Shown: positions 17,909 to 22,235 of the stretch, piece after piece
Position numbering within the stretch: the first letter of the stretch is position 1
Layout: each line of letters begins with the position of its first letter
Source: Cryomorphaceae bacterium BACL29 MAG-121220-bin8
GTDB lineage: Bacteria; Bacteroidota; Bacteroidia; Flavobacteriales; Flavobacteriaceae
Reading direction: 5' to 3'
Assembly: GCA_905182765.1 (NCBI GenBank)
Contig: CAJJCV010000013.1
Coordinates: forward strand, 1 to 37,700
DNA: 37,700 nt
Program-made: the position numbers and the translations under genes
Notes under the pieces: model-generated
What the model saw: the letters and a program-made list of their open reading frames with translations, nothing else
Databases searched by the model: none
What the model was told of the DNA's origin: nothing

Positions 17909-18628
17909 ATGAAGAAATTTTTTATTTGTTTGACAATTGGTTTAATTTTTTCACAACAATTAGCCCAATCGCAGGAATTAAAAGATAAAAAGGTGTTAAT
18001 TGTATGGGGAGGCTGGGAAGGACATAATCCAAAGCTGTTTTCAAATATTGTTGAAAATTGGTTAATTAAAAATTCAGCCAAAGTAGAGGTCAAGAATAGT
18101 TTAGACATTTATTCAAATTTAGATCATCTTATGAAATTTGATTTAATAATACAATCAGTAACCAATGGAGAAATCACACCCCAACAAGAAAAAAATCTAA
18201 TTCAAGCGATAAGAAATGGCGTTGGATTTGCTGGAGCTCACGGCGGACTTATAGACTCTTTCAGATCTAATGCTGCTTATCATTTTATGACTGGAGGACA
18301 ATGGGTAGAACACCCCGGAGGAATGGTAAATTTTAAAGTAAAAATTATTGAAGATGAATTAACTAAGGGTATAAAGGATTTTGAAATATTTAGTGAACAA
18401 TATTATATTCACTTTGATCCAAATATTGAGGTTCTTGCTACAACAAAATTTGATGGAATAAATTATCCGTGGATTAAAGATGTGGAAATGCCTGTTGTTT
18501 GGAAAAAAAAATACGGAAAAGGAAAAATATTTTATATATCACTAGGACACGATCCAAACGAATTCAAAAGACATGTAGAAGCATGGAAACTGCTAACAAG
18601 AGGATTTATTTGGGCTAGCTCAAACTAA
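17909..18628 (+). CDS. ThuA-like domain protein, secreted
   Basis: 239 residues. A Sec signal peptide is cleaved near AQSQ (about 19-22). The ThuA fold (PF06283, a glutamine-amidotransferase-like domain) spans about 28-238, with KVLIVWGGWEGHNP, GVGFAGAHGGLIDSF (about 107-121), GGQWVEHPGG and GKIFYISLGHDPNEF near the end. ThuA proteins take part in trehalose and other disaccharide use through 3-keto intermediates, together with ThuB, a Gfo-type oxidoreductase. That matches the divergent Gfo gene. The stop shares CTAA with the stop of the convergent pseudouridine-synthase relative. Confidence 0.9.
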   Translation: MKKFFICLTIGLIFSQQLAQSQELKDKKVLIVWGGWEGHNPKLFSNIVENWLIKNSAKVEVKNSLDIYSNLDHLMKFDLIIQSVTNGEITPQQEKNLIQAIRNGVGFAGAHGGLIDSFRSNAAYHFMTGGQWVEHPGGMVNFKVKIIEDELTKGIKDFEIFSEQYYIHFDPNIEVLATTKFDGINYPWIKDVEMPVVWKKKYGKGKIFYISLGHDPNEFKRHVEAWKLLTRGFIWASSN

Positions 18629-19326
18629 AAAGAGTTTAGGTTTACAACCTCTTGTTTTTTCAATAATCTCCATTTCCCTCTAGGTAACTCTTTTTTTGAA
18701 AGTCCTGCAATTATTACTCTGTCAATGGATATAACTTTATGATTATATTTTTCAAATAAATTCACAATACTAGACATTCTACTAGCTCTAACTTCCAATC
18801 CTAATTCATTTTTTAGCCCATCATTTACATAATTGATAGAAATTATTTCAATATTATTACTATCTGAAGAATTTTTTATAGAATTCAAATCCTCGTTAGA
18901 AATGTTATCTCTAAGTTTAATTTCAAATAACTGTTTGAAAGAGCCAAACTTTTTAGAAATAATATTATTAAAATCATTGTCGTTTGAAATTAAAACTAAT
19001 CCAGAAAATTGTTTAATTGTAATTTGAGTTGGATTTAAGTTTACAGCTTTAAGTGAGGACAATAGATTTAAAACATTTTTTTTACCCGAAACATTGAAAT
19101 CAAAGTCTAAGGGTTTATTTAAAAGTAAATACTGAAAATCATAAGGGAAAATTATTTTCCCATCAACTTTAACTTCATCGTCTAAGGACACTTTTGATCC
19201 TAACTTAACAACTAATTCATTATTCACAGAAACTCTTCCGCTGCTAATATAATCGTCAGCTTCACGTCTTGTGCACAGCCCAGAATTAGAAACATATTTA
19301 TTTAATCTTACAAGTTTGATTTCCAT
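18625..19326 (-). CDS. RluB/RsuA-family pseudouridine synthase homologue, catalytically degenerate
   Basis: 233 residues. An S4 RNA-binding domain is well kept (about 5-56: RLNKYVSNSGLCTRREADDYI, GRVSVNNELV). It is followed by LLLNKP (67-72) and a catalytic-domain remnant. Where active enzymes have GRLDRxTTG with the catalytic Asp, this protein reads PTQITIKQFSG (99-109), with Ile104 at the Asp position. The conserved GRNRxVRRxFExxGY segment near the C-terminus is ASRMSSIVNLFEKYNH (181-196). The C-terminal DRVxxAGLxKKxLPRGxWRxLxKxEV signature remains, so homology is secure. It probably lacks synthase activity and may act as an RNA-binding protein. It is the last gene of the mevalonate operon, 6 bases after the UbiA gene. 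Confidence 0.85.
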   Translation of the reverse strand: MEIKLVRLNKYVSNSGLCTRREADDYISSGRVSVNNELVVKLGSKVSLDDEVKVDGKIIFPYDFQYLLLNKPLDFDFNVSGKKNVLNLLSSLKAVNLNPTQITIKQFSGLVLISNDNDFNNIISKKFGSFKQLFEIKLRDNISNEDLNSIKNSSDSNNIEIISINYVNDGLKNELGLEVRASRMSSIVNLFEKYNHKVISIDRVIIAGLSKKELPRGKWRLLKKQEVVNLNSF

Positions 19327-19332
19327 ATTCTT

Positions 19333-20217
19333 TTATATACCATGCAATATTATACTAAATAAACCCAAAACGATTAAAAGTTTTAATGAATTGTGTAAGT
19401 ATTGATAATTATCTTTTGAATCACTGTTCCAAATACGATAGTTAAAAAAAGCAAAGAAGATGTAATTGAAAAGATAAAAATATTTCATGTAAGATAATTC
19501 GTAAAAAACTAATATCAGATAAGTAACGATCAAGACTAAAATAGAACAAAACGAAATGTATGCTTTAGAAACTTGCTCACCATATTTGACAGGAATAGTA
19601 AAGTAATTTAAAGTGAAATCTCCAACAAAATTTTCTAGATCTTTAACAACCTCTCTAATTAAAACTATTAAAAACAAAAATAAAGCATGTGAGAAAATTT
19701 CAATCGAATAATTTTTGTAATAAAGAATAATAGCGAAAAAAGGAGTAATTGCTAGAATTACAGAAAATAGATTTCCTATAAAAGGATATTTACTAATTTT
19801 TATTGAATAAATAATAATTCCAATAATATAAATACTAAAAAAAAAGAATGCTTTTAAAGAAACTAAAAAAGCAAGAGTTAGGGTTATTATGTTCAAGAAA
19901 ACATAAACCAAAAGCTTAGTTCTTCCAGAAATTTCCTTTTCTAAAGTAGTTTTGAGTGGTCTATTAATTAAATCTTTTTCAGAATCGAATACATTATTTA
20001 TGATATAACCTGCTGAAATTGAAAAAGCCGATGAAAAAATAATTAACCATATATTAACATCATAAACAACACCTAGAATACTGCCGTTTTCAGACAGCAT
20101 ATAAATTGAAGAAATAAATTGAGCTATAATAATAAAAAGAATATTATATCCTCTAACAACTGAAAATAAACTTAAAATCTTAAATAAAAAACTTTTATTT
20201 ATTGGAAGAAAAGACAT
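19333..20217 (-). CDS. UbiA-family prenyltransferase
   Basis: 294 residues with about eight or nine membrane helices. The first Asp-rich motif is N75xxD78xxxD82 (YIINNVFDSEKDLINRP) and the second is DLENFVGDF with later IPVKYG (about 195-215), both needed for Mg-diphosphate binding. Flavobacterial homologues are often annotated as geranylgeranylglycerol-phosphate geranylgeranyltransferase, but the true acceptor is uncertain. Its start overlaps the mevalonate kinase stop by one base (TAATG), and it follows two mevalonate-pathway genes, which agrees with use of an isoprenoid donor in the inner membrane. Confidence 0.88.
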   Translation of the reverse strand: MSFLPINKSFLFKILSLFSVVRGYNILFIIIAQFISSIYMLSENGSILGVVYDVNIWLIIFSSAFSISAGYIINNVFDSEKDLINRPLKTTLEKEISGRTKLLVYVFLNIITLTLAFLVSLKAFFFFSIYIIGIIIYSIKISKYPFIGNLFSVILAITPFFAIILYYKNYSIEIFSHALFLFLIVLIREVVKDLENFVGDFTLNYFTIPVKYGEQVSKAYISFCSILVLIVTYLILVFYELSYMKYFYLFNYIFFAFFNYRIWNSDSKDNYQYLHNSLKLLIVLGLFSIILHGI

Positions 20218-21146
20218 TACAAATTATAAACCAATTCAAGTTTGTAATTGGAAAGAGACTTTTTTGCTTTTTCAAAATCCTTTGAGAAACCTAATATATA
20301 TCCACCACCTCCTGAACCACATAATTTTAAAAAATAATCATCAGATTCTATTCCTTTAGCCCAAAGAACATGAAAATCTTTAGGTATCATTGGCTTAAAG
20401 TTTTCTAAAACTACCTTAGATAAAATTTTCATATTCGTAAATAATGAATTAAAATTTCCTTTTAAAAAATCCTCAACACAATCATCAGTAGTTTTAATAA
20501 AATTTTCCTTAATAATTTTATTATAATTTTTATTTTTCATTGATTTAAAAAATAACTCAACCATTGGAGCGGTTTCACTAGACGTGCCACTGTCTAACAG
20601 AAAAACAGCACCCTTTCCATTAGAGGATTGTGAAGGAATTCCTGTTGTTTCAATTTCATTTTGTGAATGAATTAAGATTGGTAAACTTAAATAACTGTTT
20701 AAAGGATCTAAACCAGATGATTTTCCATGAAAAAAAGATTCCATTTTTGAAAAAACGTTTTTGAGATTTAAAATTTTAGGCTTTGTTAAGTTTTCTAAGA
20801 CAGTAATTTTATTTAAAGCATATCTATCGTAAAGCGCCGCAACAAGAGCCCCGCTACTTCCAACTCCATAACCTTGAGGAATAGAACTATCGAAGAACAT
20901 ACCGTCTTTTAAATCATTCTCGAGTTTAATAAAATCAAATTCTACAATAGAACTATCAATATTTTTTAAATAATTTTTAAAATTTATTAAATTTCTATTT
21001 GATTCTTTAACAATTTCATTTTTAAAATCTCCCAGCTTTAAGCCACCCTTAAAAAAATTATAAGGAATTGAGAGACCCTTGGAATTTTTAATTATTCCAT
21101 ATTCTCCAAACAATAAAATTTTAGAATAAAATAAAGGGGCTTTCAT
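20217..21146 (-). CDS. GHMP kinase, probable mevalonate kinase
   Basis: 309 residues. GHMP kinase features: KILLFGEYGII (about 9-19), the ATP loop PQGYGVGSSGALVAALYD (about 90-107), and C-terminal LCGSGGGGYILGFSKD (about 277-292). FFHGKSSGLDPLNSYL (138-153) carries the catalytic Asp. The sequence and the adjacent diphosphomevalonate decarboxylase gene indicate mevalonate kinase, which makes 5-phosphomevalonate from mevalonate and ATP. A phosphomevalonate kinase role cannot be excluded from sequence alone, and no second kinase is encoded in the window. The gap to the upstream gene is 9 bases. Confidence 0.85.
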   Translation of the reverse strand: MKAPLFYSKILLFGEYGIIKNSKGLSIPYNFFKGGLKLGDFKNEIVKESNRNLINFKNYLKNIDSSIVEFDFIKLENDLKDGMFFDSSIPQGYGVGSSGALVAALYDRYALNKITVLENLTKPKILNLKNVFSKMESFFHGKSSGLDPLNSYLSLPILIHSQNEIETTGIPSQSSNGKGAVFLLDSGTSSETAPMVELFFKSMKNKNYNKIIKENFIKTTDDCVEDFLKGNFNSLFTNMKILSKVVLENFKPMIPKDFHVLWAKGIESDDYFLKLCGSGGGGYILGFSKDFEKAKKSLSNYKLELVYNL

Positions 21147-21155
21147 ATTGTAAAA

Positions 21156-22235
21156 TTATAATTTATTTGGTCCATTACCTACATGATCATTTATAAACTC
21201 ACCGTTTTGACAAAATTTAGATAGATTTCCAGAGACAAACTCTTGAATCTCATTGAAGTTTTTCTTAGGATATAATAAATGAATATTTGCTCCAGCGTCG
21301 AGAGTAAAACAAACTTCAGAATTAGTATTTTTTCTGTAATTCCAAATTTCGTTAATTATGTTTAAAGTGTTTGGTTTAATTAAAACATAATAAGGATTAG
21401 AAGTCATCATCATAGCATGTAAAGTCAATGCTTCTAGTTCTACGATGTGAATAAAGGCTTCGAAATCTCCTGATATTAAAGCATTGTTTAATAGTTTTAA
21501 GTTTTGGTCGACTTGAACAAGCCTGTCTTTAGAAAAGGAATGGTTAATCATTAAGTCATGTCCCACAGTGCTAGAAATATGTTTCTTTCCTTTATCCACT
21601 AACAGGATCGTGTCTTGAATATTTTTAAAATTACTATGTAATTTTTCTTCATATTTAACAGCAAAAAAATTAGAACTGTGTTTGAAAATATTACTTTCTC
21701 CCCATATTGCTAAAGGACCTAAAACACTTCTGGAAGCACTACCTGATCCAAGTCTTGACAAGAAAGATGATTTATTAAAAAAATACTCAGAGCTAATCGT
21801 TGGGTTTATTTTTTTTTCAATATCCATTATACACAATGAAAGAGCGCTGTAAGCAGAAGCAGAAGAGGCTATCCCACTACTGTGTGGAAAAGAATTTTTG
21901 GTCTCAATAATTAATTTTAAATCGAGTAAATAAGGACAATAAAAAACAATTCTTTTGAAAAAAATATTTAATTTTTCCTCAAACAAAATCTCTCTTTTAC
22001 CTTCAAATAGTAATTCGAAATTACATTGATTATTAGGTTTTTTTAATGGCTCATATTTAATAATACATTCTGTATTACAATTAGACAAAGTGAAACTTAA
22101 AGATGGGTTTAAAGGAATTTGAGTTTCTTTTTTACCCCAGTATTTTATTAGTGCAATATTACTTGGCGATTTCCAACTTGATTGACCACTAACATTCTGA
22201 ATATTTGTTAAATTAAATTTAAATAAACTGTTCAT
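21156..22235 (-). CDS. mvaD: Diphosphomevalonate decarboxylase
   Basis: 359 residues. The enzyme uses ATP to turn mevalonate diphosphate into isopentenyl diphosphate. Substrate-binding SPSNIALIKYWGK (23-35, with K31), the ATP loop PHSSGIASSASAYSAL (117-132), and the catalytic Asp D313 in FTLDAGANIHLL are all present. An N-terminal stretch of about 20 residues precedes the usual start of the fold. The ATG at 22235 overlaps the upstream stop by one base (TAATG), so the two are translationally coupled. All key residues seem intact, so the classical decarboxylase reaction is expected. Confidence 0.92.
   Translation of the reverse strand: MNSLFKFNLTNIQNVSGQSSWKSPSNIALIKYWGKKETQIPLNPSLSFTLSNCNTECIIKYEPLKKPNNQCNFELLFEGKREILFEEKLNIFFKRIVFYCPYLLDLKLIIETKNSFPHSSGIASSASAYSALSLCIMDIEKKINPTISSEYFFNKSSFLSRLGSGSASRSVLGPLAIWGESNIFKHSSNFFAVKYEEKLHSNFKNIQDTILLVDKGKKHISSTVGHDLMINHSFSKDRLVQVDQNLKLLNNALISGDFEAFIHIVELEALTLHAMMMTSNPYYVLIKPNTLNIINEIWNYRKNTNSEVCFTLDAGANIHLLYPKKNFNEIQEFVSGNLSKFCQNGEFINDHVGNGPNKL

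Follow-up and report, generated by a model that had tools for sequence, protein, structure and literature searches.

What does a relative of the pseudouridine synthases do once its catalytic residues have gone, and why is it kept? This question is raised by a gene in a window of 37,700 nucleotides (the whole stretch of DNA analysed here), which comes from a contig of Cryomorphaceae bacterium BACL29 MAG-121220-bin8, a member of the Flavobacteriaceae. A preliminary description, made from the letters of the window, had proposed that the encoded 233-aa protein aligns with the RluB/RsuA enzymes from its S4 domain through to its C-terminal signature, that Ile104 replaces the catalytic Asp in the motif PTQITIKQFSG, that a second signature is also gone, and that the gene is maintained and not a pseudogene; it had called for a count of the genomes sharing the loss, a search for a second intact rluB, and a comparison of a structure prediction with RluB. 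All of these proposals were borne out, and the loss reaches well beyond what could be seen from the window, to two thirds of a family-wide sample, in which it evolved several times.

Active-site residues and predicted fold

The gene and its landmarks, in window coordinates, are the following.

18625..19326, minus strand: putative RluB-type pseudo-pseudouridine synthase, 233 aa (intact ORF, profile and PDB matches, predicted fold)
19171..19311, minus strand: S4 RNA-binding domain, residues 6-52, with Arg20-Arg21, equivalent to E. coli RluB Arg17-Arg18 (Pfam S4, 1.8e-10)
19000..19032, minus strand: eroded motif II, PTQITIKQFSG, residues 99-109 (translation and alignment with relatives)
19015-19017, minus strand: codon of Ile104, at the catalytic Asp position, E. 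coli RluB Asp110 (alignment)
Within 19000..19032, minus strand: Ile102, at the E. coli RluB Arg108 position (alignment)
18925..18927, minus strand: codon of Phe134, at the E. coli RluB Tyr140 position (KQLFEIK aligned with RKLYHVS; codon from translation)
18754..18786, minus strand: eroded motif III, ASRMSSIVNLF, residues 181-191, with Ser and Val at the Arg194 and Arg197 positions (alignment)
18664..18708, minus strand: retained C-terminal signature, AGLSKKELPRGKWRL, residues 207-221 (translation)
19333..22235, minus strand: co-directional neighbours of the gene (ORF list)

The gene belongs to a co-directional run, the stop codon of the upstream gene lying 6 bases ahead of the start of its ORF. 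The neighbours at 19333..22235 are presumably genes for a UbiA-type prenyltransferase, a mevalonate-kinase-like protein and a diphosphomevalonate-decarboxylase-like protein.

Similarity to the RluB/RsuA enzymes extended over the full length of the protein, both in NCBIfam (RluF 2.6e-21, RsuA 2.5e-9, RluB 4.2e-6; all scores far below the family cut-offs) and in a phmmer search of the PDB, where the match to RluF (3dh3; 1.1e-17) covered residues 6-230. Among Pfam domains, S4 (1.8e-10) was the only one over its cut-off, S4_2 was sub-threshold, and PF00849 gave no match in this protein. The protein scored 28.7 bits against a cut-off of 109.3 for TIGR00093 (RsuA-family pseudouridine synthases), 75.9 bits against 318 for the RluF equivalog NF007784, and 26.1 against 290 for the RluB equivalog NF007976, for which an intact flavobacterial relative also stayed below the cut-off, at 137.2; RluF-type paralogues reached 317.3 (L003) and 328.9 (L336) on NF007784.

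An AlphaFold model built on 40 aligned sequences (pLDDT 90.1, pTM 0.80), which we assessed at the level of the fold, was matched by Foldseek to RluF 3dh3 (E = 6.5e-19, TM 0.70), RsuA 1ksk, RluB 4lgt and 9cl9 in the PDB, with TM-scores of 0.61-0.70 for RluF, RsuA and RluB. Entry 9cl9 bears the title 'WT 12C IM fraction, B-b3 with RluB bound', from which we take it to be a large-subunit ribosomal assembly intermediate. The predicted fold of the window protein is therefore of the RsuA/RluF/RluB type, with an S4 domain followed by a synthase fold as in members of the RsuA family; the other hallmarks of that family, namely the catalytic Asp, the conserved Tyr and the basic residues of motif III, are absent.

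With E. coli RluB numbering set through the PDB alignments, residues Arg108, Asp110, Tyr140, Arg194 and Arg197 correspond to Ile, Ile, Phe, Ser and Val in the window protein, so that none of the five key residues is kept (0/5) in a protein that retains its S4 domain. Arg197, which we take to be the basic residue of motif III, was added as the fifth. The motif III counterpart in an active relative (L083) reads SGRNRIVRRIF, as against ASRMSSIVNLF here. Misalignment of motif II was ruled out by a conserved Gly109 (RluB Gly115), by the predicted overall fold and by the complete lack of Asp and Glu at residues 92-115, which means that no small shift of the alignment can supply an acid at the Asp site. 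In the available text of the RluB structure paper (PMC3919597), Asp110 and Arg194 are catalytic, the Asp is called universally conserved, four other synthases are inactive once it is mutated, and the activity of E. coli RluB falls to 0.6% in Arg108Ala and to ~3% in Tyr140Phe. Judged from its sequence, the window protein very probably no longer makes pseudouridine.

Occurrence of the loss in the Flavobacteriaceae

A similarity search of 60 relatives yielded matches in 56. Within the window's genus (22 genomes, the window's own included), the catalytic Asp was missing from every orthologue examined (17/17), with ambiguous base calls near the motif in one of them, L023; the remaining five genomes showed a paralogue-level match only (2), no match (2) or a match split over two frames (1). 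Sequencing error as the cause of the Asp loss is ruled out by its presence in 17 of 17 orthologues. The split case (G013:C40), the sole match in its genome, consists of frames of 51 and 206 aa, and may represent a broken gene, a paralogue or an assembly error. Stop-to-stop frames, in which the start sites of the relatives are not fixed, measured 227-251 aa for the full-length members of the genus and mostly 270-340 aa elsewhere in the family; an N-terminal extension present in most other family members is apparently missing from the window genus.

The family sample comprised 199 genomes from 198 genera, evenly drawn and at least 90% complete except for the window's own. Matches were found in all 199 and an orthologue in 194, all of which were examined. 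The Asp was missing in 131 of the 194, the position being occupied by Asp in 63, Gly in 110, Glu in 10, His in 4, Asn in 2, and Ile, Lys, Ser, Gln and Ala in one each; the Asp-less motifs were mostly GRLGRN(S/A)xG. All five key residues were intact in 38/194, and 25 further orthologues had the Asp and lacked another of the five. Arg194 was kept in 0/131 Asp-less as compared with 43/63 Asp-bearing orthologues, and the raw counts for Tyr140Phe, with kinship ignored, were 105/131 and 4/63, respectively. Five genomes (G077, G083, G152, G203 and G229) gave only matches that score like the RluF paralogue and were counted as lacking the orthologue, absence being called by score; the one match of the five that was examined (L345) is RluF-type. 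In these genomes the orthologue was apparently lost altogether and an RluF-like match kept.

Two further observations concern other positions. Arg108 was missing in 18/63 Asp-bearing orthologues, with Lys in its place in named examples from Maribacter (L079), Salinimicrobium (L080) and Christiangramia (L097); since Lys or Met at this position inactivated RluA, and Ala inactivated RluB, among the mutants described in the accessible part of PMC3919597, inactivity may exceed the count of missing Asp residues. At the column of RluB Gly123 (residue 120 of L027), Asp or Glu was present in 100/131 Asp-less and 0/63 Asp-bearing orthologues, and Gly in 57/63 of the Asp-bearing ones; this new acid just past the eroded motif may point to a function gained in the GRLGRN lineage. 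The window protein carries Asn there.

Among named genomes we considered, of 581 confirmed matches, the 80 most similar to the window protein, a set that partly overlaps the family sample and is not independent of it. The Asp was missing in 18 of these 80. Named Asp-less proteins include those of Leeuwenhoekiella palythoae, Nonlabens ulvanivorans, Zobellia uliginosa, Luteirhabdus pelagi, Pontimicrobium aquaticum and Lacinutrix sp. C3R15, and intact proteins are found, among others, in Flagellimonas, Tenacibaculum, Polaribacter and Wenyingzhuangia; in records titled Flavobacterium the Asp is retained and the Arg194 position is occupied by Lys or, in one case, Gly. The nearest named records among the best 80 of 581 were two uncultured MAGs of the window genus (L075, L076).

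A similar upstream gene order in the relatives argues for orthology: of 66 named loci with full flanks, 60 have a UbiA-type homologue on the strand of the gene and no more than 4 kb upstream, and they include lineages with and without the Asp. In a quick maximum-likelihood tree of 44 rows (SH-aLRT support only; the window-genus rows are of unusual composition), E. coli RluF is joined by the RluF-type paralogue (100) and not by the window protein, and the 12 Asp-less rows included fall in a clade (93) to which partly eroded proteins of Flavobacterium and Salinimicrobium also belong. The tree and the UbiA neighbour together indicate that the RluB-type group shares common descent with active family members, as one clade apart from RluF. 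The window protein is the S4-bearing, RsuA-type member other than RluF, and its most likely name is RluB, though E. coli RluB and RsuA have no fixed place in the tree.

In a FastTree gene tree of 260 rows, from which five trait columns were left out, the Asp/no-Asp state changed 18 times. A loss-only model gave 19 Asp-losing lineages, or 16, 11 and 7 nodes after collapsing branches below 80, 90 and 95% support, and 7 independent Asp/no-Asp pairs were obtained across well-supported (starred) branches alone. As many as 102 Asp-less rows constitute a single lineage, so that the genome counts reflect far fewer independent events. The raw association with Tyr140Phe is mostly that of one large lineage, because it is not seen in the 7 independent pairs (on average 0.2 in the same direction, 1.5 opposite), where it disappears with relatedness allowed for; Arg194 differed in about 3 of the 7 pairs, all in the same direction, too few for significance, and the corresponding values for Arg108 were 1.7 and 1.1. 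Fisher p-values, which relatedness inflates, were left out of account. We infer that constraint relaxed early, at the expense of Arg194, and that the Asp was then lost repeatedly. That catalytic loss evolved repeatedly, and in most of the sampled genera of the family (131/194), is well supported by these alignments and trees.

Outside the family, the Asp was missing in 3/55 genomes examined. These were represented by 57 rows (two genomes were fetched twice), drawn from 18 of 21 matching order-level genomes and 39 of 105 matching phylum-sample genomes, the 39 consisting of the 19 best-scoring rows and 20 hand-picked lower down the list; the distant rows are the best match per genome, and some may be other RsuA-type members. 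L039 and L050 (G046, G058), both members examined of another family in the order, have Asn for the Asp, and L370 (G281), from elsewhere in the class, has Glu. The same loss may be under way outside the family too.

RluF-type paralogues kept the five key residues in 21/21 hand-picked family genomes, the window's own included and ten belonging to the window genus. In the window's genome (54 contigs, 80% complete), PF00849 identified three other synthases, of the RluD type (HRIDKDTSG), the RluA type (HRLDRPTSG) and the RluF type (L003, GRLDKTSEG), the last on another contig than the window gene. A second intact copy of the window protein was found neither there, at 80% completeness, nor among the TIGR00093 matches listed for Asp-less family genomes. 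The TIGR00093 search covered 51 family genomes, hand-picked from lists of every third genome, that were at least 98% complete (37 Asp-less, 14 Asp-bearing). For the 37 Asp-less genomes, the listed matches over the cut-off comprised the orthologue in 4, one match of RluF length, and often an open frame of ~190-240 aa, which by length alone we read as RluE-like. The four orthologues over the NCBIfam pseudouridine synthase cut-off (G072, G138, G126 and G230) have Glu or His for the Asp, and automatic annotation may therefore call some Asp-less orthologues pseudouridine synthases.

Constraint on the protein and its likely target, helix 93

Asp-less proteins, their former catalytic domain included, are under purifying selection. 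In 11 same-genus Asp-less pairs, non-independent through shared sequences, dN/dS (NG86) was 0.058-0.309 for the whole gene, 0.059-0.385 for the former catalytic domain and 0.05-0.28 for the S4 part; some of these ratios are rough, because several pairs approach synonymous saturation (dS > 1 in 3/11). Of two GRLGRN pairs, one gave 0.094 and the other was saturated; the value for one Asp-bearing pair was 0.013, so that, on this single pair, intact copies may face still stronger constraint. Together with the 17/17 losses in the genus, these ratios, none of them near 1, rule out a pseudogene, in line with the intact reading frame and with the maintenance proposed in the preliminary description.

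The constraint is distributed unevenly. Positions that are at least 95% conserved among the 38 intact proteins number 17 for the S4 part and 70 for the synthase part; in the presumably dead proteins the former are kept at 96% on average and the latter at 65%, with the losses in the synthase part falling mostly in motif II, motif III and the loops between them. The scaffold is retained, for example Asn70-Lys71-Pro72, Gly112, Asp119, Lys216-Lys217 and Arg221 (L027 numbering). Both S4 arginines (RluB Arg17 and Arg18), the first of which, in the crystal structure, fastens RluB to the loop of the rRNA (PMC3919597), are kept in 131/131 Asp-less and 63/63 Asp-bearing family orthologues. The Lys-Lys and Arg-Gly of the C-terminal signature are kept in 98-100% of the Asp-less orthologues.

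We searched the genomes for the helix-93 pattern that we take to hold U2604-U2605. The sequence was unchanged in the window's genome. Across the family it was matched in 86/199 genomes, all with 0 mismatches though one was allowed, and these comprised 55 Asp-less genomes, 28 Asp-bearing ones and 3 without the orthologue. The other 113 are uninformative, since, as far as checked, their assemblies lack the 23S or have it masked; allowing three mismatches in 13 unmatched genomes with few contigs still gave no match, and in three loci inspected the 23S was masked. Loss of the target as an explanation for the loss of catalysis is ruled out where the site was found (86/86 unchanged).

Possible roles and comparison with known systems

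Our preferred reading, which we consider probable, is a non-catalytic rRNA-binding role on the large-subunit precursor at helix 93, the stem-loop bound by both RluB and RluF in E. coli (accessible part of PMC3919597). The catalytic centre would have been dismantled by substitutions, with the fold, the S4 domain and the gene neighbourhood kept. While the 50S subunit is being assembled, the protein would still dock on 23S helix 93, which lies beside the peptidyl-transferase centre, and would grip the loop of the helix with its S4 domain and the stem with its former synthase domain; once bound, it would aid folding of the helix-93 region, or hold that region until a later step, and would no longer form pseudouridine. 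The binding, the assembly role and the absence of pseudouridine are what we infer here. Modification enzymes that act without catalysis are on record, as RlmB and RlmKL aid 50S assembly in this way in E. coli (available text of PMC11194073) and TruB is a tRNA chaperone (available text of PMC11301382). However, in the same portion of PMC11194073, RluB added to an E. coli strain devoid of ten modification enzymes produced no significant change in the ribosome profile, which leaves an assembly role putative even for active RluB, and a catalytic mutant of the pseudouridine synthase RluC was likewise no help. The residues of motifs II and III also touch RNA (PMC3919597, as available), so that the old binding mode could be weakened by their loss, and the five genomes of 199 without the orthologue by score suggest that the role is dispensable in some genomes.

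The S4 domain could instead have given the protein a different job on RNA or the ribosome, for example in ribosome-associated quality control or mRNA regulation, in the manner of Hsp15, RqcP or YlmH. S4 is its sole Pfam domain over the cut-off, and YlmH and RqcP do work on the 50S through their S4 domains (PMC11317155). We nevertheless hold this to be unlikely, given that purifying selection on the former synthase domain is about equal in strength to that on S4, that its fold is predicted to be intact, and that B. subtilis RluB, when overexpressed, was no substitute for RqcP (PMC11317155). If catalysis had simply become dispensable, for instance with RluF covering the site, the protein might be in the course of gradual loss. 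The motifs do vary among the dead proteins, 5/199 genomes are without the gene by score and the RluF-type paralogues are intact in 21/21, but dN/dS of 0.06-0.31 between uniformly Asp-less proteins, the keeping of the gene in 194/199 family genomes and the lack of internal stops in the listed family matches make such decay highly improbable. We give as little credence to a non-catalytic partner of another enzyme, for example of RluF acting on the neighbouring U2604 of the same helix: the shared stem-loop of RluF and RluB in E. coli (PMC3919597, as available) and the intact RluF in the same genomes would suit it, whereas the two genes lie on different contigs in the window's genome, a weak point in an assembly of 54 contigs. 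Least probable of all is continued pseudouridine synthesis by an unusual chemistry with another acid replacing the Asp, which could appeal to the Glu at the Asp position in ten family orthologues and to the acid in the Gly123 column (100/131 against 0/63), but is opposed by the lack of a nearby acid and the Asn at the Gly123 position in the window protein, by its changed Arg108, Tyr140, Arg194 and Arg197 positions, and by the inactivity of Asp mutants in several synthases and of RluB Arg108Ala (0.6%) and Tyr140Phe (~3%) in the available text of PMC3919597.

Extended to the family, the proposed docking of a catalytically dead RluB at helix 93 leads to a more tentative proposition, possible if short of probable, that in much of the Flavobacteriaceae RluB has been turned several times in parallel into a structural 50S assembly factor, the U2605 pseudouridine of the peptidyl-transferase centre being given up and the protein kept. 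If true, this would be natural evidence that selection preserves the binding of RluB and not the modification. Why cells retain rRNA modification enzymes whose single deletion has a minor effect is regarded as an open question (PMC11194073, as available), and evolution seems to have repeated a separation-of-function experiment on it, in which the chemistry was lost and the protein kept. The question is directly testable, as named strains are available on both sides (Asp-less Leeuwenhoekiella palythoae, Nonlabens ulvanivorans, Zobellia uliginosa and Lacinutrix sp. C3R15; Asp-bearing Flagellimonas and Polaribacter).

Dead relatives of active enzymes are a familiar phenomenon. The literature searched, whose scope left subscription papers and preprints outside, yielded no account of RluB-type proteins without the Asp, none of the mapping of pseudouridines in rRNA of flavobacteria, and none of a pseudouridine synthase orthologue group that is Asp-less across many genera. 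With E. coli RluB, the 23S pseudouridine 2605 synthase (4lgt/9cl9), the window protein shares the S4 domain and predicted synthase fold, the S4 arginines, the C-terminal LPRGxW and the target sequence in the genome; it differs in that Asp110, Arg108, Tyr140, Arg194 and Arg197 are all changed, with an NCBIfam score of 26.1 against 290. E. coli RluF, the 23S pseudouridine 2604 synthase (3dh3), is its best match in sequence and fold, yet a separate, intact RluF-type gene (L003) in the same genome groups with RluF and the window protein does not. The tRNA chaperones TruB and TrmA and the assembly helpers RlmB and RlmKL are likewise modification enzymes that aid RNA folding or assembly without catalysis (available text of PMC11301382 and PMC11194073), but they retain catalysis in nature, whereas the orthologue group of the window protein has lost its catalytic residues in many genera. 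The bovine mitochondrial Trm2 homologue offers a natural loss of a catalytic residue, with RNA binding proposed as the role that was kept (available text of PMC11301382); it is a methyltransferase and a single case, whereas here the loss affects one synthase orthologue group, in 131 Asp-less genomes.
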